Positions 604 to 38,466 of a stretch of 64,000 nt of DNA are shown here, piece after piece. Origin of the DNA: Zasmidium citrigriseum (lineage: Eukaryota; Ascomycota; Dothideomycetes; Mycosphaerellales; Mycosphaerellaceae). Position 1 is the stretch's first letter, and the number at the start of each line of letters is the position of its first letter. The notes beneath the pieces are model-generated. The model worked only from the letters and a program-made list of their open reading frames with translations. It was not told the DNA's origin and made no database searches. The DNA is taken from assembly GCA_002786025.1 (NCBI GenBank), contig NHNW01000042.1, forward strand, positions 62,001 through 126,000. The letters run 5' to 3'. Position numbers and translations under genes: made by a program.

Positions 604-1557
604 ATGTCTGGCCCAGCAGCAGCTACAGCAGTCAAGAAGAAGCTGGTTGTATGCGGAGGAAATGGGTTCCTTGGAAGCAGGATATGTAAAGCTGCGGTAG
701 CAAGAGACTGGGATGTGGTTTCAATAAGGTGAGTGACTTTCTTCACAACACTCCTTGACAATCCCTCTTGGGACTGACATTTCTCCAGTCGATCAGGCGA
801 ACCCAACTGGCCCTCCGTCTCCTCCCATCAAACCGCCCCTCCCTGGTCAAAATCCGTTACCTGGCGCTCAGCCAATATCCTCCACCCCGAAACCTACAAA
901 GCCGATCTCGAAGGAGCAAACGCAGTCGTCCACTCGATGGGAATCCTGCTCGAAGCAGACTACAAAGGTGTCCTCACAGGAAAAGAGTCGCCAATCTCAG
1001 GGCTTAGAAGAGCGTTCTCTGCAACAAAGCAAGGCGGAGACACCAATCCCATGGAGCGGAAGCCAGGACAACAGATCGAGCCTGGGGAGAAAGATGGACA
1101 GTTGACGTATGAGTTGATGAACCGGGATTCGGCGATTACGTTAGCAAGAGAGGCCAATGATGCGGGTGTGAAGAGTTTTGCGTATATCTCTGCGGCTGCT
1201 GGAGCACCGATCTTACCTGCGAGGTACATCAATACGAAGCGGGAGGCTGAGAGTACCATTGCGTCGGCGTTCCCCAAGATGAGGAATCTGTTCATCCGGC
1301 CCGGCTTCTTGTTCGACTCCTCGCGGACCTTCACCATGCCAATGGCTGCCGTGACTTACGGTGGCTTCATCGCGAACTCGCTCACGGGAGGTAACTTAAC
1401 CTGGTTGATGGGTGCTGGCGGCGCGAAGCCATTGAAGGCGGACTTGGTAGCCGAAGCTGTCGTTGAAGCACTCTCTGACGACGCTGTCAAGGGGCCAGTC
1501 GAGGTCAAGGAAATCGAAGAGCTCGCTAACAGAGCATGGAGGAGAGGTATGTTGTAA
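604..1557 (+). CDS. coq11: Coq11-like mitochondrial NAD(P)-binding protein (YLR290C family)
   Basis: Atypical short-chain dehydrogenase family protein of the yeast Coq11 (YLR290C) type. In yeast Coq11 belongs to the mitochondrial inner-membrane CoQ synthome that makes ubiquinone. Two exons, 604..728 and 789..1557, with a GT-AG intron at 729..788, join in frame to a protein of 297 residues. The N-terminus carries the Rossmann glycine motif GGNGFLG after a beta strand (LVV). A region HSMGILLEADYKGVL follows the splice, and the 3' half contains FAYISAAAGAP and YINTKREAES, which match the conserved strand and the Y-x3-K-type helix region of the family. The start at 604 is chosen because it places the Rossmann strand close to the N-terminus; no clear long presequence is visible. 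It converges on the DUF1769 gene, whose stop lies about 180 bp downstream. Assignment to the family is good; the role in CoQ synthesis is transferred from yeast. Confidence 0.85.
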
Positions 1558-1738: not shown

Positions 1739-2980
1739 TCATTGCGTTCCGTTCAATAAGGGGCCGCTCCTCTGCTGTGATGTCGACGTGTTCCTCAGCA
1801 GCTCATCAATCTCGTCGATGCTGGCCTCTGACACCAAGTGCTCCGCTGCTGCTTCATGGTCGCCAGGATGTATCTGCATGGTCGATGGCACTGGATTTAC
1901 CTGCTCTGGAGACTTCGACACGGCCTCTTCCTCATGTATCGAGTGATAATCATCGTCGTCGCTGTTGTCGCTGTCATCCTCGATTTTGCTTTCCTCAACC
2001 TCATCAGCACCCCCAACAGCCTGGTCCTGATCCTTAGCATACCCAGCCATAGTCGCCCTCAAAGTCCCCTCCCGATCCTGCTTCAACGCCCTCTTCAACT
2101 GCTCCCCCCAAAGCAATGTAAAATTCACATTAAAATAAACATCCCCCGTCTCCTGATTCTTAAACACATACCTCAAACAATGCGTCTTCTCCCCCGTATA
2201 TTTCAACACCTTCAGACTGAAACCCGGCAATTTCAACGAGAACTGACTAAAAGAAATGTAAGGGTTGTAGAAGTCGCCTTGGTACAGACGGCCTTTTTCG
2301 AAGATGAACGGGGAGCGGTTGGCAGGGGAGAGGAAGTGTTTGCGGCGCTTTTCGTTGTTTTCGGGGAGGGAGTGTTTGTAGCGGATTTCGCGACCTGTGC
2401 CGTCGGCACCCTCGGTCAAAACTCCTGGGCCATCGAAGTCCTCTTCGTCAGAGACTTTTTCTCCTATCCTGAGGGCGAACCAGCAGGAGAGGGAGGGGCC
2501 GTAGAGCCAGGGTTCGTCGGCGTAGACGTCGCAAGATAAGCCTGGGTCGATAAACTCCTTTACAATCCGGAAAGCCGTGTTGAACCCTGGGGGAATCTTA
2601 TCCCTTATCGGATGGTCGAGATCGTTGCCCCAGACTGTCTGCAAACTGGGCAGATCCTGTTTGGGAACGAAGCTGAAGCCGAGGGAGTATTGGTCGCGTT
2701 CGTGGATGGGGTCGTCGAAGTATTCCGCATGAGAAGGACAAGAGGAGGGAAGACCGTTGAAACCTCGCACGCGGACGTTGATTTTCGCGCGTATGAAGTC
2801 GTTTTCTACGTAGACTGCTTCTTCGGTGTTGACGGGGACGATCTTGTGGTCTTGGAGGTTGTACGAGGGGCCTGCTGTGACGAGGAGGCGGTATTTTTCT
2901 GCTTCTTCTGTCCTTGGAGGGCTGGTGCTGGTGCCCCTTGAGGCTGCTTGGGAGATTTTGTTTCTCATGTAGGAGGTCAT
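1739..2980 (-). CDS. DUF1769 family protein
   Basis: A single-exon protein of 413 residues belonging to the fungal DUF1769 (UPF0590) family, of which fission yeast Duc1 is a member linked to the cell cortex. Its biochemical activity is not known to me. The conserved core covers roughly residues 45-320 and includes the family signatures YSLGFSFVPK, WGNDLDHPIRDKIPPGFNTA, FIDPGL, VYADEPWLYGP and NPYISFSQFSLKLPGFSL. After about residue 320 comes an acidic, low-complexity tail (DDSDNSDDDDYHS) that looks disordered. The ATG at 2980 opens a short basic, serine-rich leader before the conserved core. The 3' end faces the Coq11-like gene; the 5' side opens onto about 890 bp of intergenic DNA bordering the transferred sugar-nucleotide island. 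No introns are needed. Confidence 0.85.
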   Translation of the reverse strand: MTSYMRNKISQAASRGTSTSPPRTEEAEKYRLLVTAGPSYNLQDHKIVPVNTEEAVYVENDFIRAKINVRVRGFNGLPSSCPSHAEYFDDPIHERDQYSLGFSFVPKQDLPSLQTVWGNDLDHPIRDKIPPGFNTAFRIVKEFIDPGLSCDVYADEPWLYGPSLSCWFALRIGEKVSDEEDFDGPGVLTEGADGTGREIRYKHSLPENNEKRRKHFLSPANRSPFIFEKGRLYQGDFYNPYISFSQFSLKLPGFSLKVLKYTGEKTHCLRYVFKNQETGDVYFNVNFTLLWGEQLKRALKQDREGTLRATMAGYAKDQDQAVGGADEVEESKIEDDSDNSDDDDYHSIHEEEAVSKSPEQVNPVPSTMQIHPGDHEAAAEHLVSEASIDEIDELLRNTSTSQQRSGPLLNGTQ

Positions 2981-3869: not shown

Positions 3870-4732
3870 TCAAATCAACAGAGAGGCAACAAACTTTGCA
3901 TATGCGCTTTGTTTCCCAATCTTTTCGGCGAGTATCGCAAGCTGGGCAATACTGATGGACCCTTGTTGAAAGCTGACAGCCTCTAGACATCCAACGATAG
4001 TCTCGCCATGGATTTGCAGCTCCGCCACGAGATTGCTTGCGGCCAACAATCTGTCCGGTGTTCCCATATCGATCCACGTACATGACGCAGGGAGTCGTTC
4101 AACGACAAGCCGGCCGCGGCGAAGGTATTCTCGATTGATATCGGTAATCTCCAACTCCCCACGCGAGGATGGCTGGACGGTCGCGGCGATGTCGAGCACT
4201 TCGTTGTCATACAGATATAATCCTGTGACGGCAAGCGACGAATTCGGACACGCCGGTTTTTCTTCGATCGCAATCGCTCGACCCTCGGCCTCCTCCACGA
4301 TACCGAAGTTGCTGGGATCCGAGACCGGAATTGCAAAGACAGTAGCCTTGTCCAGGCAGGCAATGGCACGCTTCAACTGCGTATCGAAGTCCGATCCTAT
4401 GAAAAGATTGTCACCCAATATGAGACACGATGTATCCGAGCCAATAAACCCGGCCGCTATACGAAAGGCTTCAGCTACACCATTGGGCTTGGTCTGGATC
4501 GCATATGATAGGCAAATTCCGAGCTGTGATCCATCCCCAAGCAAGTTTTGAAAACGGACCTTATCCTCCGGCGTGGTAATGATGAGTATCTCGCCAAGTC
4601 CCGCTTGCATGAGAGTCGCCAGCGGGTAGTAGATCATCGGCTTGTCGTATACCGGAAGCAGATATTATTCGACGCCACTGTCGCAGGCATGAGACGCGAG
4701 CCAAAGCCGCCGGCAAGAATGATAGCCTTCAT
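3870..4732 (-). pseudogene. rmlA: Glucose-1-phosphate thymidylyltransferase (RmlA/RffH type), frameshifted
   Basis: RmlA-type nucleotidyltransferase: alpha-D-glucose-1-phosphate + dTTP gives dTDP-glucose, the first step of bacterial deoxysugar pathways. The ATG at 4732 starts the family N-terminus with the nucleotide-binding loop LAGGFGSRL (residues 6-14). The frame then breaks near 4664-4668, and the zero frame hits TGA at 4634-4636. One missing base, in the lysine codon of the expected K-x-LLP motif, would join it to the long second frame from 4637: DKPMIYYPL, GDNLFIG, the ITDIN-REYL region, WIDMGTPD and a complete family C-terminus. The two frames together come to about 287 residues, the usual RmlA length. 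No GT-AG intron explains the break. The TGA overlaps the next ATG (ATGA), but a protein starting at 4637 would lack the dTTP-binding loop. Either a one-base sequence error or true decay. Intronless, divergent from wecE across 476 bp. Confidence 0.88.
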
Positions 4733-5208
4733 CGCAAGCGTTCACAGAGGCAGCAGCTGTAGGGAAACAGAGGGGTGAAAGCAATCAGTGAGTCGTGTAT
4801 GCAGTTCTGAAAGTTGCAGAAGCTGATCTGGCGGCAGTTCCCAAGCACTTATCGTGTCGGGTGTCACAAGAATCAGGTTCACGATGTGAGATGCCGTGTG
4901 CAACACACCAGCGCGGACCATAATGTATTTGGTGTAACTCCGTGAACTAGTAGACACGGCCAGGACCTTTGAGGCAAACGCAGACAGTCTTGAACGTATG
5001 CCAGCAAGGGATTGACTGGCATACACGCTAGGATCTTTAAGGCAACCGCAGACAACTTGGAACGCATGACGACAGTGGTTGACTCGGCTTTTTAGTGGTG
5101 TCCGACTACGGATTTGGGTCATAATACGGACCATGAGCCTGTGAATCTCCAAGACGTTGAGTCCTCCTCGCGATTCGCCTGCGTCACTTTCCCGCAATCG
5201 GCTCAGAC
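4733..5208. promoter_or_regulatory. Bidirectional promoter region between rmlA and wecE
   Basis: A 476-bp non-coding spacer separates the divergent rmlA and wecE starts, so it must hold both promoters. It contains an imperfect direct repeat described separately. An antisense open frame of 158 codons crosses most of it, but it begins inside the wecE start region and resembles no protein family I know, so I treat it as chance. Confidence 0.5.
4962..5087. repeat. Imperfect 58-bp direct repeat in the rmlA-wecE promoter
   Basis: Two copies, 4962..5019 and 5030..5087, align over 58 bp without gaps at roughly three quarters identity. Both begin AGGAyCTTTrAGGCAA and end in ATTGACTGG or GTTGACTCGG-like sequence, with a 68-bp period. 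The short spacer before each copy also shares ACACG. It could be an old local duplication or a duplicated protein-binding region. Confidence 0.6.
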
Positions 5209-6360
5209 ATGATACCATTCAACATACCTCTTGTCACGGCAGATGACTGCAAGAACGTGGCAATAGCCTTGAACAATCCGGCAAGCTTGAAAGGTGGCGG
5301 CCAGTTCAGTGTGGAATGCACCAAGCAGATGAATAAAGCCGCTCCGGACAGCAAGGTGTATCTCACGACGTCTGGTACTTCCGCTCTGGAGTTCGCGGCA
5401 ATTCTGGTCGACGTCAAATCCGGAGACGATGTAATCGTTCCAAGCTACACATACGTCTCCACAATCAACGCCTTCATCTTGAGAGGCGCGACAATAGTCT
5501 ACGTCGATGTCGATCCTGCAACCATGAACATGAACGTCGAGCTCCTTGAGCAAGCCATCACGTGCAAGACAAAGGCCATTGTTCCAGTACACTATGGTGG
5601 CATCGCCTGCGACATGGATCGAATACTAGCAGTCGCTGCTGACAGGGATGTGTTTGTCATTGAAGACGCCGCACACGCATATAGCGCTACCTACAAAGGA
5701 TCAGCGCTCGGATCCATCGGCCACATTGGATGCTTCAGCTTTCATGCGACCAAGAACTACACCTCAGGGGGCCAAGGCGGCGCCATCTTGGTCAACGACC
5801 CCCATCTGCAAAATCGAGCCGACGTTGTGTACGAGAACGGTACAAACAGGAGACAGTTTGCCAGAGGCGAAGTGTCGAAATACGAATGGCAAGACATCGG
5901 GTCTAACTTCCAGATGAGCGAGATAGCCGCGGCCTGTCTCGCAGCACAGCTCAGCCTTGTCCCAAAAGTCAACGTCGAACGAAGGGGAATATGGGACAAG
6001 TACTATGAGTCTCTCGCTCCCCTACAGGAAAGGAGTCTCGTCCAGCTGCCACACGTCCCGGTCTACGCGGTCCACAACTCTCACGTGTTCTGGCTCAAAT
6101 GGCGCGATGTGATCTTGCGAGACAAGTTCATAAGTTTTATGGAGTCGGCTGGGATTTCAGTGGTCTTCCACTATGTGCCATTACATTCGACTCCCATTGG
6201 ATCTGCTACTGGTCGATTCAATGGCTCGGACGTTCACACTAGCATCGGGGCTGGCAGATTGGTTCGTCTGCCATTGTACTACGGGCTATCTGATACCGCG
6301 CAAGTAAAGGTCATCTCAAAGACAATGGATTTCGCACAGGCCTTCGCGAGTGGGCCGTAG
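5209..6360 (+). CDS. wecE: dTDP-4-amino-4,6-dideoxygalactose transaminase (WecE/RffA)
   Basis: PLP-dependent sugar aminotransferase of the DegT/DnrJ/EryC1/StrS family. WecE converts dTDP-4-keto-6-deoxyglucose to dTDP-4-amino-4,6-dideoxy-D-galactose using glutamate. The 383-residue product runs colinear with enterobacterial WecE from the opening MIPFN to the C-terminus: SGTSALE, VIVPSYTYVST, IVPVHYGG, the PLP-contact EDAAH (152-156), CFSFHATKNYTSGG with the Schiff-base lysine at residue 182, ENGTNRRQF, YEWQDIGS, VFHYVPLHSTP and RLVRLPLYY. Only DegT-family members of the WecE branch share this set, so the 4-keto-sugar specificity is a good inference. No intron. The ATG at 5209 is fixed by the family N-terminus. 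It diverges from rmlA and converges on wecD, with only 8 bp between the two stop codons. All catalytic residues I can identify are intact. Confidence 0.93.
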   Translation: MIPFNIPLVTADDCKNVAIALNNPASLKGGGQFSVECTKQMNKAAPDSKVYLTTSGTSALEFAAILVDVKSGDDVIVPSYTYVSTINAFILRGATIVYVDVDPATMNMNVELLEQAITCKTKAIVPVHYGGIACDMDRILAVAADRDVFVIEDAAHAYSATYKGSALGSIGHIGCFSFHATKNYTSGGQGGAILVNDPHLQNRADVVYENGTNRRQFARGEVSKYEWQDIGSNFQMSEIAAACLAAQLSLVPKVNVERRGIWDKYYESLAPLQERSLVQLPHVPVYAVHNSHVFWLKWRDVILRDKFISFMESAGISVVFHYVPLHSTPIGSATGRFNGSDVHTSIGAGRLVRLPLYYGLSDTAQVKVISKTMDFAQAFASGP

Positions 6361-6368
6361 TCGACAGC

Positions 6369-7097
6369 TCACTTATACAACCAATACGACGTTCCGATGG
6401 GCATGGCTCCCGCATTGATGTACAGACGCAAAGCCTCCATGTTGCTGATCTGTGTTGCTATGCGCAAACGATTCCTATCGCGCGAAAGTGTCCAATCAGT
6501 AGCCGCACTCAACAGCATTTTGCCCAGGCCTTGCCTCCTAGCCTCTTCTCGGACTGCTAGAAGTCCTATGCGTACGCAAGCGACAGGTTCCTGCACTTCA
6601 CGTAGCGTAACGAACGCGAGTATCCCTCCCTCACCATCCTCCAGTACTAGGCAGACGTCGTCGAATTTGCCGCGGACTGCCTTGCTCGTCCATGTTGAGT
6701 ACATGAGTCGGGCTTCCTCGTTGGTATACCAAGGTTGACGAAATCTTGTCTTGTTCTCAAAGGAGAGCGCAGCAAGGTGACATAGCTCGGGGATATCGTC
6801 AGAGATGGCATGGCGATACTGCATTGACGACATCTGATGGCGATCGGACATCGCTCCATGGGTAGTCTGAGTGTCCAGGGCGATCTCCAAATCAATCTCA
6901 GCCTCGCACAATCTGAAGTCTGCGGATGTAAGGCTGTCGATGGCAAATCTGTCCGAAGATGACACCTTCGCATGCACCAAGTCGAATTGAGCATAGGCCG
7001 AGGCCGGTGGTAGTGTTGTGTCTGGTTGAGGCGGCTCGATTGTCCCAATTGGCCTCTTGAAAAGACTCGACTCGAAGGGCTGTGGCTGAAGGGTCAT
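6369..7097 (-). CDS. wecD: dTDP-fucosamine (4-amino-4,6-dideoxygalactose) N-acetyltransferase, WecD/RffC-like
   Basis: GNAT-fold acetyltransferase of 242 residues. WecD transfers acetyl from acetyl-CoA to the 4-amino group of dTDP-Fuc4N to give dTDP-Fuc4NAc. Similarity to enterobacterial WecD extends over the whole chain: the N-terminal FESSLFKRPIG half-domain, TRFRQPWY (117-124), YSTWTSKAVRGKFDDVCLV, RIGLLAV, and the C-terminal LRIATQISNMEALRLYINAG followed by YWLYK. The acetyl-CoA loop RRQGLG lies at 187-192, and Tyr226 sits where the family has its general-acid tyrosine. The N-terminal non-GNAT half, typical of WecD and absent from generic GNATs, is what makes this call specific. No intron. 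It diverges from rmlB across 440 bp and is tail-to-tail with wecE. A linker at about residues 75-92 is longer than I expect for bacterial WecD. Confidence 0.9.
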   Translation of the reverse strand: MTLQPQPFESSLFKRPIGTIEPPQPDTTLPPASAYAQFDLVHAKVSSSDRFAIDSLTSADFRLCEAEIDLEIALDTQTTHGAMSDRHQMSSMQYRHAISDDIPELCHLAALSFENKTRFRQPWYTNEEARLMYSTWTSKAVRGKFDDVCLVLEDGEGGILAFVTLREVQEPVACVRIGLLAVREEARRQGLGKMLLSAATDWTLSRDRNRLRIATQISNMEALRLYINAGAMPIGTSYWLYK

Positions 7098-7537
7098 TGC
7101 GGGCTAGGTAGTTGCGGTAACCTCGCAGAGCACAACAGATCGGAGTGATCTAAATCAGTAGTCTTCAAAGTCGAAGACGATATGAGTAGTCTGATTCAAA
7201 TGTGTCACGGGTGCCGCGACCCTGGCGAGAAGTCTGAAGCTACTCGCAATGCAGTCAACGCAGAGCAGCACGAGACTGACGTCTAGTCTGCATTAGTCTT
7301 GTTGAATGTGTAACCACATCATGTGTTCACCGTGATTGAAAGGGTTCCACAACACTGGTCTGAATGCCCAAGCACCATTCTTATCAGTCGAGCATTTCTC
7401 GGGACTGCAGTAGTGTTTGGAGTGCCCTCCTCGATCGAGTTTCGAAGCAGAGGAACGCAAAGATCACGACCCAAGCAACAAATTGACTCACCACCTCCCA
7501 CGCTCTTGTCCAACAGTCTCTACTTACGACACATGCG
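7098..7537. promoter_or_regulatory. Bidirectional promoter region between wecD and rmlB
   Basis: A 440-bp spacer between divergent starts. It contains four copies of TAGTCT on the + strand, at 7159, 7187, 7284 and 7294, which is more than chance would give in about 140 bp. No TATA or CCAAT element stands out to me. Confidence 0.45.
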
Positions 7538-8590
7538 ATGACACATCGAGTGCTCGTCACAGGCGGAGCAGGATTCATCGGGTCGGCCGTCGTGCGCAAG
7601 CTCCTAGAGGACAAAAATGAGGTCCTCACAGTGGACAGCCTGACGTACGCTGGTAACATCTCGTCGCTGCCACAAAATGCCTTACACACCTTCATACATG
7701 CCGACATCTGTGACAAAGACCGGGTGGCCGGCATCTTGGCCCAATTCCGTCCAGATTGGATAATGCATCTAGCGGCGGAGAGCCATGTCGACCGATCGAT
7801 TAGTGCGCCAAATACATTCATCGAAACAAACATCATCGGTACATTCAACATGCTAGAAGTCGCCAGAGAGTACTGGAAAGAGCTCTCAGAACCCGATCGA
7901 GGACGGTTCCGCTTCCTCCATGTATCGACGGACGAAGTCTATGGATCAGCAGGTGCTGATACATATTTCACCGAAACGACCCCGTACAATCCTTCCTCGC
8001 CATACGCAGCGTCCAAAGCCGCGGCGGATCACCTCGCTCGGTCCTGGTATAAGACCTTTGGCCTGCCCGTCATCGTTTCGAACTGCTCCAACAACTACGG
8101 TCCCTTCCAGTTCCCGGAGAAATTGATTCCTCTTACGATCACCAACCTTATCCAACGCAAACCTGTCCCGATCTATGGGACAGGAACTCAAGTCCGGGAC
8201 TGGCTGTTCGTTGAAGACCACGCTTGCGCCCTACACGCTGTGATCGCGAGGGGGCGCATCGGAGAGACGTACGTGATCGGAGGACATAGTGACTATCGTA
8301 ACATCGATTTGGTGAATATGATCTGCGAAGTGATGGATCGAGTTCGTCCTGACGGCAAGCCGCATGCCAAGTTATTGAGCTTCGTGGTCGACAGGCCTGG
8401 GCACGATCAGCGATATGCAATCATACCCCAAAAGGTGGAAAGTGAGCTGGGCTGGAAGCCCTTACATGATTTGAATACTAGCCTTGAGATGACTGTTCAG
8501 TGGTACTTGAGTCATGAATGGTGGTGGCAGCCGCTCCTGGAGGGAAACCTCAAAGTCGACTACAGTAATGACGATATTCAACAGCGTTAG
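7538..8590 (+). CDS. rmlB: dTDP-glucose 4,6-dehydratase (RmlB/RffG)
   Basis: Extended short-chain dehydrogenase of 350 residues that converts dTDP-glucose to dTDP-4-keto-6-deoxyglucose with bound NAD+. The Rossmann loop GGAGFIG lies at residues 9-15, DSLTYAGN at 33-40, AAESHVDRSI at 79-88, and the dehydratase catalytic triad Thr131-Asp132-Glu133 within STDEVYG. Tyr156 and Lys160 form YAASK, followed by NNYGPFQFPEKLIPL and the substrate-binding VRDW and DRPGHDQRYAI segments. All marks of an active RmlB are present. No intron. The ATG at 7538 places the nucleotide-binding strand at the N-terminus as usual. Fungal and plant UDP-glucose 4,6-dehydratases share the fold, but the RmlB-type segments and the neighbours favour a dTDP-sugar enzyme. 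It supplies the substrate of WecE. Confidence 0.93.
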   Translation: MTHRVLVTGGAGFIGSAVVRKLLEDKNEVLTVDSLTYAGNISSLPQNALHTFIHADICDKDRVAGILAQFRPDWIMHLAAESHVDRSISAPNTFIETNIIGTFNMLEVAREYWKELSEPDRGRFRFLHVSTDEVYGSAGADTYFTETTPYNPSSPYAASKAAADHLARSWYKTFGLPVIVSNCSNNYGPFQFPEKLIPLTITNLIQRKPVPIYGTGTQVRDWLFVEDHACALHAVIARGRIGETYVIGGHSDYRNIDLVNMICEVMDRVRPDGKPHAKLLSFVVDRPGHDQRYAIIPQKVESELGWKPLHDLNTSLEMTVQWYLSHEWWWQPLLEGNLKVDYSNDDIQQR

Positions 8591-11371
8591 ATATCTCGAA
8601 GTCATTGCAGGACTTGCCGCTACATCGCGTTGGAACCCCGTATTGAAAAGTCTGTTCGGACTATCTGCTGCACTCCGGCGCCAGACGGTAGGTTCATTCA
8701 CTTACCTCTACGGCCATAGCCAAATGTAGACGACATCGGAAGAAGCATTGGCAGCGTTCGTGCAAAGAAGCATCCCAGTGACAACTTCTGAGTCTCGTAC
8801 CGTTCGCCGCAGATCTTTCCACGTTGATCGAACCTCCCATGTGCGTGATAGGGATCCAAAGCAATCACATATCCGCAAATAGCTGATACATGCCCCACGG
8901 GAAACTCTCTATCTTCGCACTGAGGCGAGTGGAGAACCAGTGTGATGGTGAATGTAGCTCCTGCCCCTCCACGAGTCAACACTCGTAGTCTCGTACAAGA
9001 CCGAACAAAGTAAGAGAGCCATAAGGGGCAAGAAGAGGACATAAGACAAATGAGGGCTTATGTCTTTTTCTGTCAACAACGAACCACAAGCTCATGGTCA
9101 GGGTAAGCCGGAGAGATTCATGTATGTGATAGGAAAGTGCCATCCCTGTCAAGTCTTAGGGCGAAAGAGAACCTAGAGGAAGCCTATTGACGATTTGAAA
9201 ATTCGCCAACAGAGTCAAAGAAGATAGGAAGCGAAGTAAATGCGAGCGAGGACTCACTATTGATCATACAGCATCTCAAACGATAGGACGCGGTTGCTGC
9301 GGCGGTTATCAGACCACAGATGCTGAACAAGGCGACGTCGTGACACTTGCGAAGGCATCCTGTTGCTGGTGATACGGCGGCCGCCGAACGTGAAAGACAA
9401 TGTTGCTGGTTGGAACCTCAACCGTGATAGGGTCTAATGGCCGAGTTCACTAGGGAGAAGGTTACGTCCGCTTAGGTCCGAAGCGCAGTTGCGAAGGGTG
9501 ACTCTCAGTGTTCTGGCCAGTCTGGACAACTTGCGACTTCTTTGAGGTGAAACCACTCTCAACTTTTGAAGTTCTCTCAAAGGGTCCAAAGCCGTCTAGA
9601 TTCTCGGGAATAGCTTGGAACGGAAGCATCTCAAGCTGGTCCAAAGAGGGCAGATTCACCGATTTCCCAAACGACCAGCTTGGCCGCGGCTGCATAAACA
9701 TGGATGGGTTGATCGGTAGAGCGGTGCGTTGTCAACCTGCAAAGAAGCGAGAGTAGGGCTTTTGCGCCAGTCAGGGTGAGTCCCTCAAGAATGTGGAGCA
9801 AAATCAGGTCCAGGTTGTGGAGTAATCGAAGCTTGGTTGTCGCCACAACCTCGCGGTGACCATGAATCTGATCTCAGCCTACAATCTGTGGGGATGCTTT
9901 GCTAGGGTCAAGCAAAGGCAGATTCGATGAATGTTCGTCTCCAGAAACATCGTCCGAAGATGGGAACGCCGTATCGAACTCGCCAAGAATAGAGCCGTGA
10001 TTGCGCGTGAATGTGATCTTCTTAAACCCGTGTGCTATTCGCGTTCAGGAGGTGTGTTTCCATTGTGTCTGAGAACATCGTGACCGCAAGGATCGATACG
10101 CGCTGAGGTGGTGGAGATGGAGAAGAGGCAGAACTGGGAGAGTCCTTGTTCAAGACTTAGCTGGTGGTATGCAGGTCACTGACTCTCGGTGGCGCTGATC
10201 TTGAACAAGGTGAAGACACTCGGGCCAAGCTCCCCGTGGGATGAGAATGCCGACGGCTAAACCGGCTTCAATCTGCAATACCAGTCATGTCGCCCGAACG
10301 TTGCTCCGGAAATGCGGTCTGTATTCCTGCCTGAGGAGCCTGACACCCTGACGTCCAGATGGCAGATGTCATGGCTCGTGCCGGCATGTCCTTGGTGCGG
10401 CCATGACACGTCCAGACGGAAGGCTAACGCCACAGTGGAGGACGTTTGGTGTAGGCTGGAGGACTTTCCTCGGAGCATTGTTTCGACCACGCGCGGTGAC
10501 GGTTGGCCTTGTTGAGATCCAGATCTGCTCGTTCGCGTGGCGTCTTCATTGTGGTGTCATAGCCTTCCGACGCTCGTAACTCGGCCCTTCGTACAGTCGG
10601 GTGGCGGTCAATCGCGAACGGGATATCGAGCGGTAAATCAGCTGCTAAGGGCATGGAATCTGAATCGTCAACAGCTCAGAACCAAGCGGTAGGAGCACGT
10701 CTGTCAAAGTGGTCAGCCGCCTGCAGCAGACAAACAAAAGAAAGAGACGCACGGCGTGTCAGATAGAAACGCGGTGGGCAGTTCTATTTTCAGGGCTCCC
10801 TTGTCCACGTTTCATCGGCGCCTGGTTGCTGCGGCTGACGGGCAGGGCGGCTGTGGCTGGGGACTCCCAACTCCCGCCCGCACAAAGAGAAACTCTCTTC
10901 GACGACACCTCGTCCGCATCACCACGTCGTCCGGTGACCGCCTCGTTTGTCGCCAACTCTTTGTGCGGACAGCTCACCTCCAATGGAAATACCAAGCACG
11001 ATGATGGAATCGACGGCGGTTTCGCAGAGGCAAAGGAGCCATTGCGCGTCGCCATGGATTATTTTAGCCCATCGGGCGGCTGCTGACGAGTACTGCACAC
11101 ACGAACTGCTCCTTCTTGCACAGCCCGGCGGAGGTAGCAGAGGAAAGACGTCTGGTGTGTGGTCCAAGGCAAGACTGTTTACGACAGTGTCTCTTTCTTT
11201 TCCTTGTCCACTGCTTCTTTCTTCATAACAAACTTCTCGCATCCAGACCCTCTCCTACATCTTTACTGCATTTTTGGCGTTGTTGGTTTGGTCACGCTCG
11301 CTCCACGATATCAGACGACGACTCGAAAACAGTAGACCAACGACAGACTCACCTTTCACCTGGCGTTAGCG
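8591..11371. other. Intergenic region, 2.8 kb, no supported gene
   Basis: Right border of the transferred island and upstream region of the PI-PLC-like gene. Open frames are short and overlapping. The longest, 8698..9042 on the - strand (114 codons), starts with ATG but has no recognisable domain. I see no glycosyltransferase, flippase or transposase remnant, although highly decayed copies could escape reading by eye. Just upstream of 11372 there are pyrimidine-rich tracts typical of fungal promoters. Confidence 0.5.
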
Positions 11372-15400: not shown

Positions 15401-15793
15401 GTCTGCCCCATTGTGTGCTCCCAGTCATATCCCAGACGGCCATCAATTAATAGCCCCTCAAACATCGGCCCTGGTTGCTCCTCAACGTCGAGGTATTTCT
15501 GTTCTTAACAACGACTGATGCGCCCCTCCTCCCGGCAACGATCGCAGCAACCTTAAGGCTGGAGGATCCTGAGCTAGCGGCAACGCCTTGGTGTGATTCA
15601 AAAGCTGCTTTTCTCCTTGCATTCTTGGTTTCTGGAATTTGCTACCGTCGGCACACTCCAACACCGATTCTCCCACTGCTTGCCTATTCGATGCTATCGA
15701 CCCACCTGATACACTTCGACATCTCAGACGATTGCAGGCTGGCTTGCCGCTGAGTTGACTGAACACTTGACGTCGAGACTGCGTCGGTCCACC
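12452..15793. other. 3.3-kb non-coding region upstream of the homeodomain gene
   Basis: The part from about 13.3 to 14.8 kb is notably GC-rich. Many open frames occur on all strands, as expected from high GC, but none resembles a protein family and they overlap heavily. I expect this region to hold the 3' end of the PI-PLC-like gene and a long promoter and 5' leader of the transcription factor gene. Confidence 0.5.
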
Positions 15794-17303
15794 ATGGAGA
15801 GCCTTTCATTGAACGAACGACACTCTTATCATCGATATGGCGGCCACTACCACACCAAGGAACGGAGACACCGCTCTCCTCGATTGCCAACGCCAGAGGA
15901 CTCGCGGAGTAGCAATGAGACAATCGATGCTCAGAGCCCTCGTGAGGCTGCGCCGCCTGTTCGCGACCTCTTGCGTTCGGGCGTAGGGGACAGGAACGCC
16001 TCTTTAGGCCTTCCTAGCTCGAATGGTCATTATCGACGCGATAGTGGTAACGCCAACACGCCACATTCTCCTCCCTATCGCCTGGCCGACGAACAAAAGC
16101 CGTCTCTTCCTCCGCTCAAGACTGTTGGTATCCCGCTCCTAGCATGTATTCCGTCTTCTCATTGTTCACAGGTACTTGGCGACAACATCAGCAGTCCACC
16201 CAGGACTCCAAGCCCTCATGAATCTGCACTTCAGCCGTCGCCGCGAGAGCCATCCTACACCGCCTTGACTTATAAGCCTCCAGCATTGTACCCGAACAAG
16301 AAGCAGAGGACAGAACCAGCCCTCAACTCAGCACCAGCGCATCTGGGCCCCAGTGGCCTCAAATCGACATTCCCACCGTCAGCGACTCTCGAACCACGAC
16401 CCTATAGCTCATCTTTACGCCCGCACGTTCAGTTCCCACCTTTGTCTGCTCCAGTCGATCGTTTGAGCTCACGACGACAGTCAAGCGCGGCCACCAGTCC
16501 ACCATGGGGAGCACAGTACCCAACACAGGCACAGCAAGCAAGTTCCAGTATCGATGCGCCAGCAAATCATTATCAGACCCCAGAACAGACACCTACCTCT
16601 TCGATGGCTGAGCCATCATTCCCCAGAATGAACTCGTTCGCCGGACCAGTGCAAGATCCATTCGCAAGAGAAATGCGCGAAAGCTTTGGGCATCCTGGCG
16701 ACCGACCAAATTCACGAAGAGGCTCTTCCAGCAATTATGCCTTGTACGCGTCGCGGCCATATGATCGCGAGCCGCCTCGGGCCATGTCCTATCAGCAAGG
16801 AGCGCGTCACTCGCTTCCTGTCAGAGGCGGCTACCCAGATGCATATGAGAACGCTCGGTATGGCCGGCCAGACGAGCTGACGCGTCCAATGGGTGGCTAT
16901 GGACAACCCCCCTACCAAGGCAATATGCCCGCCTTCTTCATGCCTAGCCATTACGAATATCAGCACGGCAAAGCACGAAAGAGAAGCAATCTGCCAAAGC
17001 AATCGACAGAAATCATGAAGACTTGGTTTGATCAGGTTCGTCGTCCGTTGCCACGCTGACGAGGTCCACAATACTTACTTGCATGCAGAATATCACCAAT
17101 CCATATCCCAGCGAGGAGCAAAAGGCTATCTTCTCTAACGTAAGTTGCCAGTAGCTTATGTATCGACATTAGTGCTGACTTGACTGGAGGCTACCGGAAT
17201 CAGCATGACGCAAGTCAGCAACTGGTTCATCAACCACCGTCGACGCTGTCCGGAACTCCGGGACAAGCGCGATAAGGGACGCATGCGAGATGTTGATGTT
17301 TAA
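15794..17303 (+). CDS. TALE-type homeodomain transcription factor
   Basis: Nuclear DNA-binding protein. A long Ser/Pro/Tyr-rich disordered N-terminal part is followed by a C-terminal homeodomain of the atypical TALE class. Exons 15794..17035, 17089..17139 and 17190..17303 join to ARKRSNLPKQST, IMKTWFDQ-NITNPYP-SEEQK and the recognition helix SNWFINHRRR, ending RDVDV. Introns are 17036..17088 and 17140..17189; both interrupt the homeodomain, so no single open frame shows it. The ATG at 15794 has a strong Kozak context (CCACCATGG); an in-frame ATG at 15755 is less likely. An in-frame 48-nt stretch, 16124..16171, bounded by GT and AG, is probably a further intron: removing it yields LPPLKTVLGD, a phrase seen in related fungal regulators. 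Length is 468 residues with that stretch or 452 without. Targets are unknown. Confidence 0.88.
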
Positions 17304-23749: not shown

Positions 23750-26700
23750 TTATGCTTGATCCAAAGACTGTGCCAGCACCATCGCAAAGTACCGCCCACG
23801 TAAAGCCTGCAACTCCTCATGAGTGCCTTGTTCTACGATCCTGCCGTTCGCCACCACGAAGATGACGCTGGCATGTCGAATAGTGCTCAATCGATGAGCG
23901 ACCGCAATCGTAGTTCGACTCGAAGCCGCCTCGTCCAGCGCTTTCTGAACAATCCGCTCGCTCTGGGTATCAAGAGCAGATGTAGCTTCATCCAGCAGTA
24001 AGAGACGGGGTTTTCGAATCAACGCTCGGGCGACTGCGATTCTCTGCTTTTGCCCGCCGCTGAATTGGCCGCCCTTAGAACCGCAAGCTGTGTCGAGTCC
24101 CTCAGGAAGAGATGATACGAATTCGAGAGCGTTGGACTGTCGACAGGCTTCCTTGACTTCTTCGTCTGATGGCTCGTACTCCAAGCCGAGGGCGATGTTC
24201 TCGCGTACAGAGCCTTGGTATAAGGGTGGCTCTTGCCTAGTGAAAGGATTAGCAGACTCCTTTGACAATGAGATTTGAAGGAGTATACTCACTGAACCAT
24301 CGACATGTGCTGTCGGTAGAGCTTGGGGTTCATGTTGGCGATGTCATCGCTGTTAAGCGTCAGACAGCCCGAAATTGGGTCATAGAAACGCATGATGAGC
24401 GACACGAGTGTAGACTTGCCACACCCTGACGGCCCAACAAAGGCAACGTAGCTGCCAGGCTCGACTTTCATGCTGATCCCTCGCAGGACTCTTGACGCAT
24501 GCCGCTGGATATAGCGGAATTCGACGTCCTTCAACTCCATTGCACCGTCTCCGGAGGGACCTCTGTCTTTGTTCTCGGCCGTTTCTCTGATCTTTGGCTC
24601 CAGTGATCGCAACCAGAGAATGTAATTCGCGGCGAGCTTGGCCTTCGTGATCGAAGAGCTGTAACCGAAGAACTGTGCGGCTGCCTGTCCGCCGAAGACC
24701 ACGGCAATGAAGACAACGAAGAACTGTTCCGTGCTGTACTCGCCACTCGCAATCAACCGAGAGCCGTACCAGAAGCCAAGGGCCATGACGAGAAACTCCA
24801 GGGACTGGGACAGGGAGTAGGGGATCAAAGTGATGATAAATCCTCGAGTTGATTTGGTGACGATCCCGTTCATGGCTTGTGCATACTCCTTGATGATTTC
24901 TGCCTCGAGCGTAAGTGAAGAGATCGTCTTGATCGAGGTGACCGCTTCGGTGGCCAGGCCAGCACTATCGGCAAAGTGGTTTGCGTTGTCTTCTTCCAGC
25001 TTTTGATCCATTCGAATGCGCACGTATCCGGAGCCGAGCAAGACTGGCATCCCGCCAAATACAACAACTAAGCCCAGCTTCCAGCCATATGCGATTGCCA
25101 AGATGCTCGAAGCTGTAACGTTGACGATGACAATGATCAGGAGGGAAATGTTGGAGGAGATCATCTCCATCAGGGCTGTAGGAACCGAAGACAGTTTCGA
25201 GGTGAGGGAGCCACTCGAGTTCTCGGGCCTGTCGTGGAAGTCGACATCCAGCTGGAGTACCTGCTCAATCATCTCTTTTCGATAGCGATGGGTGACTGTT
25301 TGGCCAATGACGTTGCAGCACCATCTGCGCAGAGAACGTATTAGCTATAATGCCAGAAAGTGCCGTACAAAATGCCGCCCCGAGACTTACCCAATGGCAA
25401 AGTATCCAACCGCGTTGGCAAGAGCAAGTACGAAGAACATGAGTGCGTAGAAGTTGGCCTCGGATTGACCCTCGCTGGCGGGAAGAATGAAGACGTTGAT
25501 CAGACGGGAGAAGAGGATAGCTTGGGCAGGATATTGGCCGCCACCGAGCAGACAGCCGATGAAGGAAAGGATGTAGCACCAGTATAGCTTGGGGTTCTCC
25601 TTGAACATGATGTAGACGCACTTGATGAGGCCATAACCGAGAGTGCCAGATGTGAGCTTCTTCAATTCGGCTTCGGCGGTTGTCGAAGCAGCATCGGTTC
25701 GTGTTCTCTGGAGACTGAAAGCGTGGTCGAGTCGTTTCTCGTCATCTTCGTCGGCGATTTCGGCTTCTCCTTGCTGCGTGTCGAGATCTTGAGCTCTGAC
25801 CATGGCAGCGTAGTGTCCATCTCGCTCAACGAGCTCCTTGTGACTGCCCTGTTCGATCACGACGCCTTGTTGCATAACGACGATGTTGTCCGCAGACCTG
25901 ACAGTGGCAAGCTTGTGGGCGATCGTAAGCGTTGTCTTGTCCTTGGAGACATGGCTGAGAGCATCTTGAACGACTCTTTCCGCAGTTGGATCCAGAGCAC
26001 TGTTGAAGTGTTAGCCATGTTTCCCATGTTCCCTACAGTGTTCCTGTCCTCTGTACTGACCTGGTGGCTTCATCGAGCAGCAAGACCTTGGGATTAGAGA
26101 TGATGCTGCGCGCGATGGCAATACGCTGTCTCTGCCCACCTGAGAGCATGCTAGCGCGCTCTCCAACTTGCGTGTCGTAGCCTTCTGGTAGCTCCATGAT
26201 GAAGTCGTGAGCGTTGCTCTGCCGACAAGCGTCTTGGACGAGCTCCATCTTCTTCTCATGAGGCAGGTCAATCTGCTCGCCAACGAAGCCCTTGGATACA
26301 TTTTCAAACACAGTGCCACGAAAGAGGACTGGCTCTTGTTGGACCAGCCTGCTTGGAGGTTAGCAAGAGTGACTAGCGATACCCACATGTGAGGTGAACA
26401 TACCGAACATTGCTTCGAAGCCACTTGGTGTTGTAGTCAGACAGCTCGACGCCGTCCAAAAGTATTGAGCCAGCCCCTGGCTCATACCATCGCTCGAGTA
26501 AGCCGACCAGGGTAGACTTACCGCAACCACTGGGTCCAACCAGGGCCGTGGTCTTGCCAGCCGGGATCGATAACGTCAGATCTTTCAGCACCTGTGCCTG
26601 TGGCCGAGAGGGATAGGCGAATTGTAGATTGCGGATCTCGATCGCTCCTTCGCATGACGGTGGCTGCTTTCCTTCTGGGGACAGAGGGTCAAGCAGTGAC

Positions 26701-27933
26701 TTTTTGTTGATGACAGAAAGGAGCTCAGATGCCGCTGATGAGGCGTTTGCAATTGCCTGCTGCTGGGGCAGAATGAGACTGATGGAAGTGGTGCTTATGG
26801 TGATTGCTAGAATCACGGTCTGGAAGAGCACCACGTCAGTAGAAGATAGAGGAGCGCATGCTGCCGAAACTTACAAAGACTGTGCCAACGTCAGGAATTT
26901 CGTTGCTTCGAAACATCCTGTATCCTTGCCAAAAAGCGAGCGACGTTGCTGAAGTCACCAGGAAGTTCTGCGATGCAAACAAGACTCCATAGTTGGGTGA
27001 CTTCTTCTTGCCTTCTTTGTGCGCCGCAGAGAGGTACTCGTCGTATTTGGCAACAATCTTGTCCTGTGCACCAAAGGCGTGAACCGTCCGGATCGAGCTG
27101 ATAGCATCCTGGGCCAGCACAGCTCCTTGGGAGTAGAACTTTGTGATCCGGGCTTCCTGCACAGCATCAATCGGAATGATGATGCCCACCAGAAGGAACA
27201 AAGCCGGAATGATACTCGAGCAAATCAAGGCCAGCTTCCACTGTTTTACCAGCGCGATGATGAAGGACGAAAAGAAGAGCGAAATTCCTTGCACCAAAGT
27301 GGCCAGTTTCTCGGAGATGCCCTGGTTGACGCGATTTCCGTTGGTCGTGACTTGGGTAGCAGCTGATCCTTGATCCTTGCCATCAAAATGCCATACTTCT
27401 TGTCGTAGAGTTGCCTCGAGGAAAGCCTGTCGCAACGCCCTGGTGGTCCTGATGCCCGAAATGCTGATGGCGACGGTAGTGTAGTAAGTTAAGACGAAGC
27501 GTCCCACGAAAAGGTAAATGAACCAAAGCACGAAGCTGTCGACGCGGCTGCGGAACTCGTCAGGGGAGGATCGACCTGCAGTGAAGTTGTTGAAGTCGGT
27601 GGTAAATTGCCCAAAGACGAGCGTCATGAGAGGCAGGGCCGCGCCTGATCCTATTGCGCCTGCGAGGGCCGTGATGTAGAGAACAGCGTCGAGGCGATCG
27701 GAAAAGTGAAAGATCCTGATGTAGTCCTTGATTGAGCCCTCCGATTTCTTCTTCTTCTCGTCGCCCTTCTTCTCGGTCGAGGCATCTTCGCTGTCTGATC
27801 CAGATCCTTCCTTTTCGGTAGCACGTGCTGTTGCGTCGACATCGACAACTTGCTCGCCTGGCCCCATCGGCGCGTTGGCTGTAGCTGCAGAGGCCCCAAG
27901 AGCTTTTTCATCCAATTCTGTTGGCTCTTTCAT
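23750..27933 (-). CDS. ABCB-type multidrug transporter, full-length (TMD-NBD)x2
   Basis: Plasma-membrane ATP-driven exporter of the P-glycoprotein class, related to fungal Mdr1/Pmd1. Six exons (27933..26875, 26819..26404, 26348..26061, 25999..25391, 25324..24293, 24236..23750) give 1296 residues; the introns are 55-66 nt. An acidic/lysine-rich cytoplasmic N-terminus (1-90) precedes TMD1. NBD1 has Walker [11 protein letters not shown]-loop LVQQEPVLF, signature LSGGQRQR, Walker [13 protein letters not shown] and H-loop [11 protein letters not shown]2 begins near [17 protein letters not shown]2 repeats the set: [45 protein letters not shown]. Both ATP sites therefore look catalytically competent. 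The Q-loops and the NBD1 Walker B region are interrupted by introns. No biosynthetic cluster adjoins it, so export of toxicants or azoles is only a family-based suggestion. Confidence 0.95.
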
Positions 27934-28756
27934 GGTCCCGAAGGTGCTATCGCGTAGTTGAGGTGGTGGAAACAAAGAAACACATCAGTAGGAGTTACCG
28001 TGTTCAAGGTCGCAAAAAGTAGGCGTCGGTCTATATCAAGACTGCGCGATGAATCATGATGTGTTCCGCAGGCAAACACGCTGGGCGCCAATGTGGCAGT
28101 CGAATGAGGTTGAACGAGCTCGGGGGATAGCGAATGCGAAGGATGCGATCAATGAACGAGCCGGTCAGTCTTCGCCGTATTGTGCACAGGGCTGAGATCG
28201 AGCAGCCAGTCATCAAAGGAATAGAACTAGAACCGGACTTTGCAGAACCCGAAATGTCGCCAGCTTGCCACCTAGATGAAGTAGACAGCTATGTGGAACT
28301 GTTGATTGCTTTGCCAACAACAGTGTCGTTCGCGAGCCCCTCCACTCGTTTAACCCATCCAATGATGCTGCGATCGATGACGCCTCGCGCGCGTGCCGAT
28401 CTATGCATGTGGCTTTGGCACGGAATTCAGATGAGCGCCTATTGGATGGCATGAACGAACTCCGTATGTAGTTTTGATGATACCGTGCTAACAAACAGCA
28501 CGATTCCTATCGCCTTCAGGCTTCAGCATTTGTCGGCGCAGATGGATTCTCTTCGGCTGATTTTCTGTTTCACCGCATTCGTGGAGCCTGCTTGGCAAGT
28601 GAGGATAAGGGATGCCTCGCGCCGAATGGTATGTGCATTCGTATGCATCATCGTATTCGCGGATTTGCGAGGTGGCCAGGAAGGGCTGAGACATGTCACG
28701 TTTCGCACTTCTCAAGCATACTGAAGTGATTGCATCTCTCTCATTATTGTCATGAC
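27934..28756. other. Upstream region of the ABC transporter gene
   Basis: About 820 bp containing the ABC transporter promoter and the 3' flank of SYF2. Short open frames on both strands without family resemblance. No clear drug-response element could be picked out by eye. Confidence 0.45.
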
Positions 28757-36256: not shown

Positions 36257-38466
36257 TCAAACAATCCAAATCTTCTTCCTCCGACACATCGCCCGACCAG
36301 TCCTCGTCCTACCCATAATAATATTCCCCACCCCAAAACGTCGCCAATCAGACCCCGCGGGCTCAAGCAAGAGGCAAGTGGCATTCCACCACATCGTCCT
36401 GTCCGGGTCCTCAGTGAGCAGGGCGACAGTACAGCGCTTCTTCATCTTGACACCCTCGTCCATGTCGTCGAGATCCGTTCTCATGTAGATTCGCCGAAAA
36501 GGGAAACCATCGATGGACAGGTAATCGCGGTCCCAGAACCGCGCCCCGATCCCGGACCAGTTGTCGCGGATGTGCAGCGTTCCTTTGGCGACGCGGGTCG
36601 CGATTTGGAGTCTTCCGATCTTGCGGATGTCTGGCTCGATGGTGTCTGTTGAAGATGGCAGGACGAAGATTTGCCCGACAGTTTCCTCCTCGTCTGGCGC
36701 GGACGGCATTCGCACGCCTTTGCTCATCGACGTCCACGACCATGAAGGGGCCAGATGGTCAGGATTGCGGCCTTTGTGCCACTTTTTCCACGTAAGGGAG
36801 CGACAGAAGTCCGTCTTCCAATGCCCATACAGGTGGGTATCACCGTACTGTCTTTCGAAGGCACGCACGAGGCCTGAAAATGCAGCGAGGCGGTCCGTGG
36901 CTCTGGTCAAGTCACAAAATGAATAGTCCCGCATCACCTTGTACCAAGCATCTCTGGCCTCGTCGGCGTTGACGGAGGTGGGGCTTTCTTGAGGCCCACT
37001 GGTTACGCCATCCTCGGTGCAGGTCTTCTCATGGCATTGCCAAATCATGCGGGCTGAAGTGAAGTGAATAACTCGCCGGGAAAGCAGCCTCTCTTGGACT
37101 GTCCAACCTCTTGATGTAAGTGGTTCTCCCGTCAGGTGACCTCCTCGAGCGTTGGAGTGGTTGCTAGTGAGGTCCGTTATCCCGTGGTAGGCAGGCCCTG
37201 ACAAATAGACTGGATATTGAGTCCCTTCGTGAGAGATACTGCCACAGCATGCTCGCATGATGCATGGCAGTTCCCTCTTCGACAAAAAGCCCTGTGTAGT
37301 GTCCGTTGCATTGGAGGCGCTGATCGTTAAGATGGCGTTGCCATAAACCTGGTCCATTTTCGCACTTTCGACTCGCCAGTCCGCCAGACTGTCCTGGAGG
37401 ATACACAATGCGTCTATCCAGAGATATTGAATTCCGAGTCTCCGTGCGAGGAAGATGGCATCTTTGTACGTCTGTGGCAGCGAGCTTTCGTCGAGTCCCT
37501 GTCGAAACACTTCAAGCAGAGGTTGCGTAAGTTTGAAGCCTGTGTATTTTCCCCAACAGTAACTCAGCGCTATGTAATGCCCTGACTTGACAGGCTCTTC
37601 CGACGTGACATGCAGGCGAAGAGTTGGAGTCTTGTCTGTACCGACGTCGAGGACACGAGTGGGGAGTCGTTCAAAGGACTGACTAGCGCATCGAGGGTGA
37701 TCTGCGCACTCGCGAAGCCATCTACCCATGATCGAGAGTGCCTCATCATCTCTGGGGCTTCTTTGCGCGAATCTGATACTGGCCGGATAGGTACCGTCAA
37801 CATCATCTACAAGATCGTCAGCGGATATGCAATATTGTCCCAAAGGAATAACGGCAGCGAACCAATCAACGGCGTCAGCGCAAACGAGGCGAGATACGCA
37901 AAAGCAGGTGACCCAGAAGGAGAGCGTTTCCCAGCCATGAGTTGAATCGTGTCATGATCTGTAGCCCCACGAAAGTACAGCTGCTCAGCCACGCCAAAAA
38001 ATTCCAATTGAACGACCCCATCCAGAGCAGTCGCCAGGTCGGCCTCTTCCCGTGTGTTTCTGTGATATCCATGGCGGGCGTGCCATCGAAGAATGTTACA
38101 TATATGACATCTCGAATCCGCCGATAGAAACTCCATGACGGGACGCCTGCTGTCGCTGCTAACGTCCCATCCGGACTCATTGCCCCCGAAGTGAGGCGAG
38201 CCACCATCTCCACGTGCACGCGCGATGACAGTGGCGAGGAAGTCTTTACAGATGCAATTCTCATCAGTCGCTGGGGATTCCTCAAAGGCGACTTTGGATG
38301 TTTCGGAAAGACGCCGCAGAGGCGGCTCGAATTGCTCTGGCGTACGGTCAAACAGGGCGACGAAGTCGGATACCGTGTCGTCAACTGGTAGCCAGTCGTA
38401 TGGAAGTTTTCTTCCTCGCGCCGTTTCGCGTTGTTGGCGCTCGAGAGCCTTGCTAGGGAAGGGCAT
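36257..38466 (-). CDS. HET-domain protein (heterokaryon incompatibility family)
   Basis: Protein of the HET family, several members of which trigger cell death when incompatible hyphae fuse. Two frames join across an intron at 37807..37862 (56 nt, donor GTTCGC, branch-like GCTGAC, acceptor TTGTAG), giving about 717 residues. The N-terminal part has a possible metal-binding cluster (CICKD, then CHICNILRWHA), common ahead of HET domains. The HET domain spans roughly residues 278-420, with YIALSYCWG, LPQTYKDAI, LGIQYLWIDALCILQD and YGNAILTISAS. The C-terminal half contains RGWTVQERLLSRRVIHF and WSWTSMSKGV, also usual for the family. The start at 38466 is the first ATG of the frame; an upstream exon cannot be excluded. 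Which allele or partner it responds to cannot be told. Confidence 0.85.

Follow-up and report, generated by a model that had tools for sequence, protein, structure and literature searches.

A candidate gene block for nucleotide-linked Fuc4NAc synthesis in the fungus Zasmidium citrigriseum, with an interrupted rmlA and a wider fungal family

Four adjacent genes resembling bacterial rmlA, wecE, wecD and rmlB lie in a 64,000-nucleotide stretch of the genome of the ascomycete Zasmidium citrigriseum (the window; C86:62001-126000). The block is real and is on a fungal contig. Probably, it is a gene set of bacterial ancestry, resident in the fungus, for making nucleotide-linked 4-acetamido-4,6-dideoxy-D-galactose (Fuc4NAc). 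We infer the activities of the enzymes, the expression of the block and the carrier, which the kinship of RmlA and RmlB suggests would be deoxythymidine diphosphate (dTDP) rather than uridine diphosphate (UDP). One of the four genes, rmlA, is interrupted in this assembly. Compared with what a first-pass annotation of the window had proposed, the finding is weaker for rmlA and stronger for a wider fungal family, which includes a second, fused copy on contig C138.

The four genes and their families

The block and the stretches between its genes are laid out as follows.

3870..4637, minus strand: rmlA-like, C-terminal 255 residues; glucose-1-phosphate thymidylyltransferase family (TIGR01207, 292.8 bits)
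4665..4732 (about), minus strand: rmlA-like N-terminal nucleotide-binding segment, in another frame (from three-frame translation)
4733..5208: divergent rmlA/wecE intergenic stretch, 476 bases between starts
5209..6360, plus strand: wecE-like, nucleoside diphosphate (NDP)-4-amino-4,6-dideoxygalactose transaminase, a pyridoxal 5'-phosphate (PLP) enzyme (PRK11706, TIGR02379)
6369..7097, minus strand: wecD-like, NDP-fucosamine N-acetyltransferase, GNAT with the WecD N-terminal partial GNAT half (PRK10975; 2fs5)
7098..7537: divergent wecD/rmlB intergenic stretch, 440 bases
7538..8590, plus strand: rmlB-like, dTDP-glucose 4,6-dehydratase (TIGR01181)

The four open reading frames (ORFs) are adjacent and intronless, as the first-pass annotation had it, and NCBIfam and Pfam assign them to the RmlA, WecE, WecD and RmlB families that it had named. 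The best NCBIfam E-value per gene ranged from 6e-64 (WecD) to 2e-147 (WecE), which excludes chance. Their order makes two divergent pairs, rmlA/wecE and wecD/rmlB, which join where wecE and wecD stand tail to tail, 8 bases apart. The rmlA/wecE intergenic stretch holds a 42-base direct repeat (4959-5000 and 5027-5068, 79% identical, 68 bases apart), whose copies are possible regulator sites; a short inverted repeat between them was seen by eye only, the program having listed none. Tandem repeats were not found at 4700-7600, and the counts of sigma-70-like promoters (6, with 5.9 expected) and of terminators (3, with 4.3 expected) stayed at the level of shuffled sequence.

WecE exceeded both curated family cut-offs (TIGR02379, 478.8 bits against 434.85; PRK11706, 490.6 against 375). 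Among solved structures it matched E. coli WecE (4piw) at 413 bits, the next other kind reaching 161; the match to an ArnB-named chain was at most 151 bits, placing the protein in the WecE and not the ArnB subfamily. The kinship to the WecE of enterobacterial common antigen (ECA) that had been proposed thus agrees with both lines of evidence. K182, at the position that we take to be the PLP-binding lysine of the family, was invariant in 16 of 16 aligned rows. Both key residues open to checking, this one and Y226 of WecD, are retained.

E. coli WecD (2fs5) aligned over residues 5-242 of the window WecD, the only full-length match; the other of the two matches was partial. The AlphaFold model of WecD (mean predicted local distance difference test score, pLDDT, 90) had 2fs5 as its best fold, with a template modelling (TM) score of 0.90 by target length and 0.83 by query length (E=1.4e-21 over 241 alignment columns; next fold 1.0e-10). 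Alignment and model both contain the two-part architecture of an N-terminal partial GNAT followed by a C-terminal GNAT. Passages of PMC4964394 report Y208 of E. coli WecD near the acetyl-CoA thioester; Y208 aligns with Y226 of the window protein (the PDB tag offset was counted by hand), which was invariant in 13 of 13 rows. The nearest WecD relative, P0001 (61% identical), passed PRK10975 (223.3 bits against 219) and fell below TIGR02382 (170.4 against 195.1). The proposed full-length match to the ECA enzyme therefore held for length, N-terminal half and fold, but did not extend to the WecD cut-offs, as given below.

RmlB scored 445.5 bits with TIGR01181, above the cut-off of 365.1, and the solved dTDP-glucose 4,6-dehydratases 1g1a (427.8 bits) and 1bxk matched it at 427-428 bits.

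A fused second locus and its relatives

Searches of the genome with WecE and with WecD each gave one further place, and both led to the same single protein on contig C138.

C138:875740-877641 (= L002:652-2553): fused WecD-WecE, 634 residues, WecD half then WecE half

Pfam PF01041 had 8 matches in the genome: two strong ones, on C138 and on C86, and six partial ones no better than E 3e-9. The WecE half of the fusion passed PRK11706 (396.8 against 375) and was below TIGR02379 (371.9 against 434.85), and the WecD half was below both WecD cut-offs (200.6 against 219 and 168.9 against 195.1). Its AlphaFold model (mean pLDDT 89.8, predicted TM score 0.62) matched WecE structures at a TM score of 0.96 by target length. 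All 50 listed structure matches concern the aminotransferase half, so the assignment of the WecD half rests on sequence.

The fusion stands head-to-head with a UDP-glucuronate-decarboxylase-like gene, the last 287 residues of which matched UDP-glucuronate decarboxylase 1 at 250 bits, with the next enzyme at 80; no NCBIfam model reached its cut-off with this gene. Its N-terminal NAD-binding segment seems to lie in an upstream exon, with an intron in the NAD-binding loop. The combination recalls the ArnA/ArnB pathway to UDP-Ara4N (UDP-4-amino-4-deoxy-L-arabinose), as do two environmental proteins (P0142 and P0143), each a fusion of an ArnA-type formyltransferase with a WecE-like half, which group with the fungal fusion in one clade. 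In contrast, the window block has neither a formyltransferase fusion nor a decarboxylase-like gene. P0144 is a WecE-like row of the P0142/P0143 group without the extra half.

Protein searches at E<=0.001 gave 7998 matches for WecE and 2675 for the C138 fusion, and 120 of each were listed (239 different proteins). Two hypothetical proteins recorded from Zasmidium cellare match the fusion over its full length at 63-64% identity. Proteins of Lambiella insularis and Glarea lozoyensis pass both WecE cut-offs, and Hirsutella minnesotensis has a shorter WecD-like protein (45% identical over 76%). The nearest WecE relative among the matches listed was P0019, 73% identical. P0019 and the nearest WecD relative, P0001, both come from 6 contigs with a longest of 5254 bases, which suggests that their genes are neighbours there too. 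The fungal family appears to be old, and has a second locus and relatives in several ascomycete genera.

Ancestry and contig setting

In the WecE tree (63 rows), all rows from named fungi were among 24 on one side of a branch with 100/99 support. These 24 comprised the window, the C138 fusion, Zasmidium, Lambiella, Glarea, both formyltransferase fusions and 16 other environmental rows; 18 of them were environmental and no named bacterium was among them. The rows of this tree (the window protein, P0139, 51 of the 239 listed proteins and 10 of the 80 bacterial loci described below, with fusions represented by their WecE half) had been chosen for spread beforehand. The WecD tree (39 rows: the window protein, 15 of 18 search matches, the WecD halves of three fusions and 20 of the 80 loci) separated 13 fungal-type rows from 26 others, 25 of them named bacteria, with 100/99 support and in 100% of 200 bootstrap trees. 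Five of the 13 come from this genome and named fungi; eight carry no organism label. The window shares its WecD clade with Zasmidium and Hirsutella minnesotensis, and its WecE clade with Zasmidium cellare, Lambiella insularis and Glarea lozoyensis.

GTDB species genomes, scanned for WecD, gave 236 relatives, of which the best 80 were kept. All but one of the 80 loci are titled Enterobacterales (79/80); L076 is Martelella alba, filed by the tree tool under Aurantimonadaceae. The best segment identity of these bacterial proteins to the window WecD was 42%. wecE was the gene next after wecD in 80 of 80 loci, at 4 bases by alignment in 73. By E-value, both WecD and WecE were nearest to Enterobacterales among the organism-named bacteria in the matches listed, where Pseudoalteromonas WecE (53% identical) was about as near as that of Enterobacterales. 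The best WecE in 398 Pseudomonadota genomes was 51% identical, and 24 of the 398 genomes had a match at E<=1e-112. The order of the fungal fusion, WecD then WecE, is that of the bacterial wecD-wecE pair, as would be expected if the pair had been acquired together and then fused. The fungal wecD and wecE genes most likely descend from a bacterial wecD-wecE pair that was also the source of the C138 fusion. Horizontal transfer had been proposed for the block; the trees uphold bacterial ancestry, but clades shared with other fungi and a second, fused copy argue against an isolated, recent transfer.

Giant viruses have a viosamine-type pathway, which makes a 4-amino-4,6-dideoxy sugar outside bacteria. 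Giant-virus L136, presumably an enzyme of this pathway, matched the window WecE weakly among PDB entries (33 bits). A giant-virus source was rejected, as IMG/VR scans with WecD and WecE gave no relatives; such single-protein scans reach close relatives only.

The ECA genes rffG, rffH, wecD (rffC) and wecE (rffA) encode the same four enzyme families as the block, with WecD and WecE as kin. We consider it very unlikely that the block descends from a single transfer of rffG-rffH-rffC-rffA out of an enterobacterial ECA operon followed by shuffling. The nearness of WecD and WecE to Enterobacterales would fit such an event, and 46 of the 80 kept wecD loci matched all four genes, in the order rmlB-rmlA-wecD-wecE (15 had one and 19 had two of the four genes unmatched). 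But RmlB fell among Pseudomonadota RmlB proteins, outside a 31-row group (100/97) holding all 8 RffG rows, and the best Pseudomonadota RmlB was 62% identical to it compared to 57% for the best RffG (8 genomes). Forcing RmlB inside the RffG-holding groups was rejected by the approximately unbiased (AU) test (p-AU 0.0131 for the 31-row group and 0.0055 for a 24-row group), both groups having been named after the tree was seen. Constraining RmlB with the RffG copies alone gave p-AU 4e-39, perhaps too strict a test, since RffG copies need not form a clade. Long branches weaken both sides of this question. Transfer of a complete ECA operon segment is unsupported by the RmlB tree and the constraint tests. 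The trees therefore bear out the ECA kinship of WecD and WecE that the first-pass annotation had expected, but do not place RmlB with the ECA copy RffG. The block also differs from ECA loci in its two divergent pairs, which are not an operon, in its fungal host, in its disrupted rmlA and in that no WecF was found in the genome.

As RmlB lies outside the group with the ECA copies, RmlB and RmlA may have a separate bacterial source. Both are on long branches, and their relatives were sought in one bacterial phylum (192 genomes matched for RmlA and 213 for RmlB, of 299); other phyla may hold closer ones. Rows in the RmlB and RmlA trees had frames of more than 300 and more than 240 residues, respectively, and some genes are present as duplicate rows.

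C86 is a contig of 387,412 bases in an assembly of 44.4 Mb and 148 contigs, and the block (C86:65870-70590) lies ~66 kb inside it. Domain scans covered the four block genes and 19 other frames, of 34 window frames of at least 230 residues. The left flank and one further scanned frame are given here.

604..1557, plus strand: NAD-binding gene, intron 729-788 (GTGAGT...CAG)
1739..2980, minus strand: Duc1-domain gene (Pfam PF08588, 216 bits)
15710-17056: frame among the 19 scanned

The 60-base intron of the first of these is canonical, and a splice test joined the exons into a 297-residue frame; the frame at 778-1554 alone had no Pfam match. This gene is putatively COQ11/NDUFA9-like. Other genes of the window carry Duc1, PUL/PFU, HET and SYF2 domains. 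Intronless genes of bacterial type could have come from bacterial contamination or misassembly, but we regard this as extremely improbable, and rejected it on contig position, flanks and composition. Fungal genes stand on both sides of the block, well inside the contig. The GC content of the four genes (0.52-0.53) and their third-position GC (GC3, 0.57-0.62) are close to those of other frames (GC3 0.56-0.70 in eight other long window frames). Moreover, the closest relatives are fungal-type, compared with at most 42% identity for the kept bacterial WecD loci, and the arrangement is unlike an operon. The fungal setting described by the first-pass annotation is in keeping with the contig position, the intron-bearing left neighbour and these domains.

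Three further observations concern the surroundings. The HET (heterokaryon-incompatibility) domain gene lies at 36260-37951; such domains are typical of filamentous ascomycetes. ABC transporter pieces at 24292-27984 form two long frames ~1.5 kb apart, with PF00664 in both and PF00005 in one, and could belong to a single gene rich in introns, to two genes or to a split gene. To the right of the block, 8650-10900 is a stretch of more than 2 kb with few, short ORFs; a repeated element was considered there and rejected, as the stretch matched only itself in the genome.

The interrupted rmlA, the carrier and the product

The main rmlA frame is open from 4664 for 264 codons, with its first methionine at 4637. 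The resulting 255-residue ORF is without the N-terminal GGxGxRLxPxT region, which lies upstream in a different frame. Solved RmlA chains matched the ORF at up to 275.8 bits. An intron was considered as the cause of the frame change and rejected, as inspection by eye, with no program, revealed no credible pair of splice sites that would retain the conserved residues. Because the 264 codons that remain form an uninterrupted frame, the damage is either recent or artefactual: in this strain rmlA was either recently broken, perhaps after relaxed constraint, or was mis-sequenced or mis-assembled. Elsewhere, long open frames of 1552 codons (38941-43596) and of 1302, 1176 and 1027 codons (on C138) give a weak indication that base accuracy is not generally poor. 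The four genes had been described as exactly what is needed for the pathway. That would hold only with an intact rmlA, and in this assembly the set is incomplete.

Several results weigh against a working Fuc4NAc gene set. A main-frame stop separates the N-terminal segment of rmlA from the rest. The open part is 68 bits short of the TIGR01207 cut-off (292.8 against 360.65), so RmlA has neither a score at that cut-off nor an intact frame with the N-terminal loop. RmlA has the longest branch in its tree (2.52). Of 103 columns conserved to 95% or more across 96 bacterial rows it keeps 77, compared to 137 of 153 such columns across 107 bacterial rows for RmlB, with some genes standing twice among these rows. 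For WecE and WecD the reference was the far narrower set of the 80 ECA loci, of whose conserved columns they keep 152 of 229 and 53 of 68, respectively. Constraint on rmlA may possibly be relaxed. The genome search gave no other RmlA, the sole further match being 23% identical at E 2.8e-6. WecD is under both curated cut-offs (PRK10975, 216 against 219; TIGR02382, 171.2 against 195.1). The WecF family (PF07429) had 0 matches in the genome, in a search whose control matched 1 of 14 genomes, E. coli. Lastly, fungal nucleotide sugars start from UDP-glucose, not dTDP-glucose, in the passages of PMC8987622 and PMC12488480 that treat them. In addition, no glycosyltransferase was found among the 19 window frames scanned besides the block.

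That the block is a decaying relic, without a product in this strain and with rmlA the first gene to break, seems improbable to us. The state of rmlA, disrupted, on a long branch and with fewer conserved columns kept, would fit such decay, as would the lack of a transferase by the one family tried (PF07429). But no stop interrupts wecE, wecD or rmlB, all of which are full length, RmlB keeps most of its conserved columns, and the open remainder of rmlA points to damage that is recent or artefactual.

Because work on fungal 4,6-dehydratases uses UDP-glucose, a UDP-linked version of the pathway is the main rival, the more so with rmlA broken. Here RmlB, or a dehydratase-like gene on contig C61, would act on UDP-glucose, a sugar nucleotide present in fungi, WecE and WecD would use the resulting UDP-4-keto-6-deoxyglucose, and RmlA would be dispensable and decaying. 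We consider this unlikely, yet worth weighing: rmlA is both disrupted and diverged with the other three frames intact, the C138 fusion adjoins a UDP-glucuronate-decarboxylase-like gene, and fungal UDP-glucose 4,6-dehydratase makes UDP-4-keto-6-deoxyglucose, according to passages of PMC12488480 and PMC8987622. On the other side, RmlB is above the cut-off of the dTDP-glucose 4,6-dehydratase model and only 35-38% identical to the genome's own C61 dehydratase-like pieces, and the block holds an rmlA gene at all. The fungal UDP-rhamnose pathway (UDP-glucose 4,6-dehydratase and NRS/ER), as outlined in parts of PMC8092308 and PMC12488480, shares the step from a 4,6-dehydratase to a 4-keto-6-deoxy sugar, but uses UDP and not dTDP and has no aminotransferase and no acetyltransferase.

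If the block makes dTDP-linked Fuc4NAc, as we prefer, RmlA would convert glucose-1-phosphate and dTTP to dTDP-glucose, from which RmlB would remove water to give dTDP-4-keto-6-deoxyglucose. WecE, with PLP and glutamate, would place an amino group on C4 in the galacto configuration. WecD would then acetylate the amino sugar from acetyl-CoA to give dTDP-Fuc4NAc. By the known chemistry of these families, the inputs of such a set are glucose-1-phosphate, dTTP, glutamate and acetyl-CoA, and its product is dTDP-Fuc4NAc. The WecD reaction is also given in passages of PMC4964394.

Searches of open-licence full-text literature yielded, among the papers that they returned, no report of Fuc4NAc or of dTDP-4-amino sugars in fungi, and the main text of a 2021 survey of fungal nucleotide-sugar enzymes (PMC8092308), in the parts consulted, has 0 occurrences of 'dTDP' and 0 of 'aminotransferase'. 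The claim that the system is undescribed in fungi stands as far as that literature goes. The parts are of known kinds; as far as we have seen, the fungal setting, the rearranged block and above all the fusion-bearing family are new.

A broader reading, which we put forward tentatively and below an even chance, is that filamentous ascomycetes hold undescribed makers of nucleotide-linked 4-amino sugars that derive from one acquired bacterial wecD-wecE pair and come in at least three designs. In the first, that of this window, unfused WecE and WecD would work with a dTDP-glucose dehydratase to make Fuc4NAc. The second would be the WecD-WecE fusion beside a UDP-glucuronate decarboxylase, on C138 and, as far as the fusion itself goes, in Zasmidium, perhaps for an N-acetylated UDP-4-amino-pentose or UDP-Fuc4NAc. 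In the third, among environmental sequences, an ArnA-type formyltransferase joined to WecE would perhaps make an N-formyl sugar. If this is true, surface glycans or secreted glycosides of fungi would contain amino sugars that have yet to be seen in any fungus.

If the enzymes of the window block work, this fungus produces a sugar nucleotide of the amino-deoxy kind that has until now been linked with bacterial surfaces, perhaps on a dTDP carrier, which fungal pathways are not known to use. This would add a new sugar to the fungal glycan alphabet, one for which cell-wall analyses would not search, and would be relevant to the recognition of fungi by hosts and symbionts. It would also be a clear case of acquired bacterial genes re-wired in a eukaryote, through divergent pairs, a fusion and new partner enzymes.

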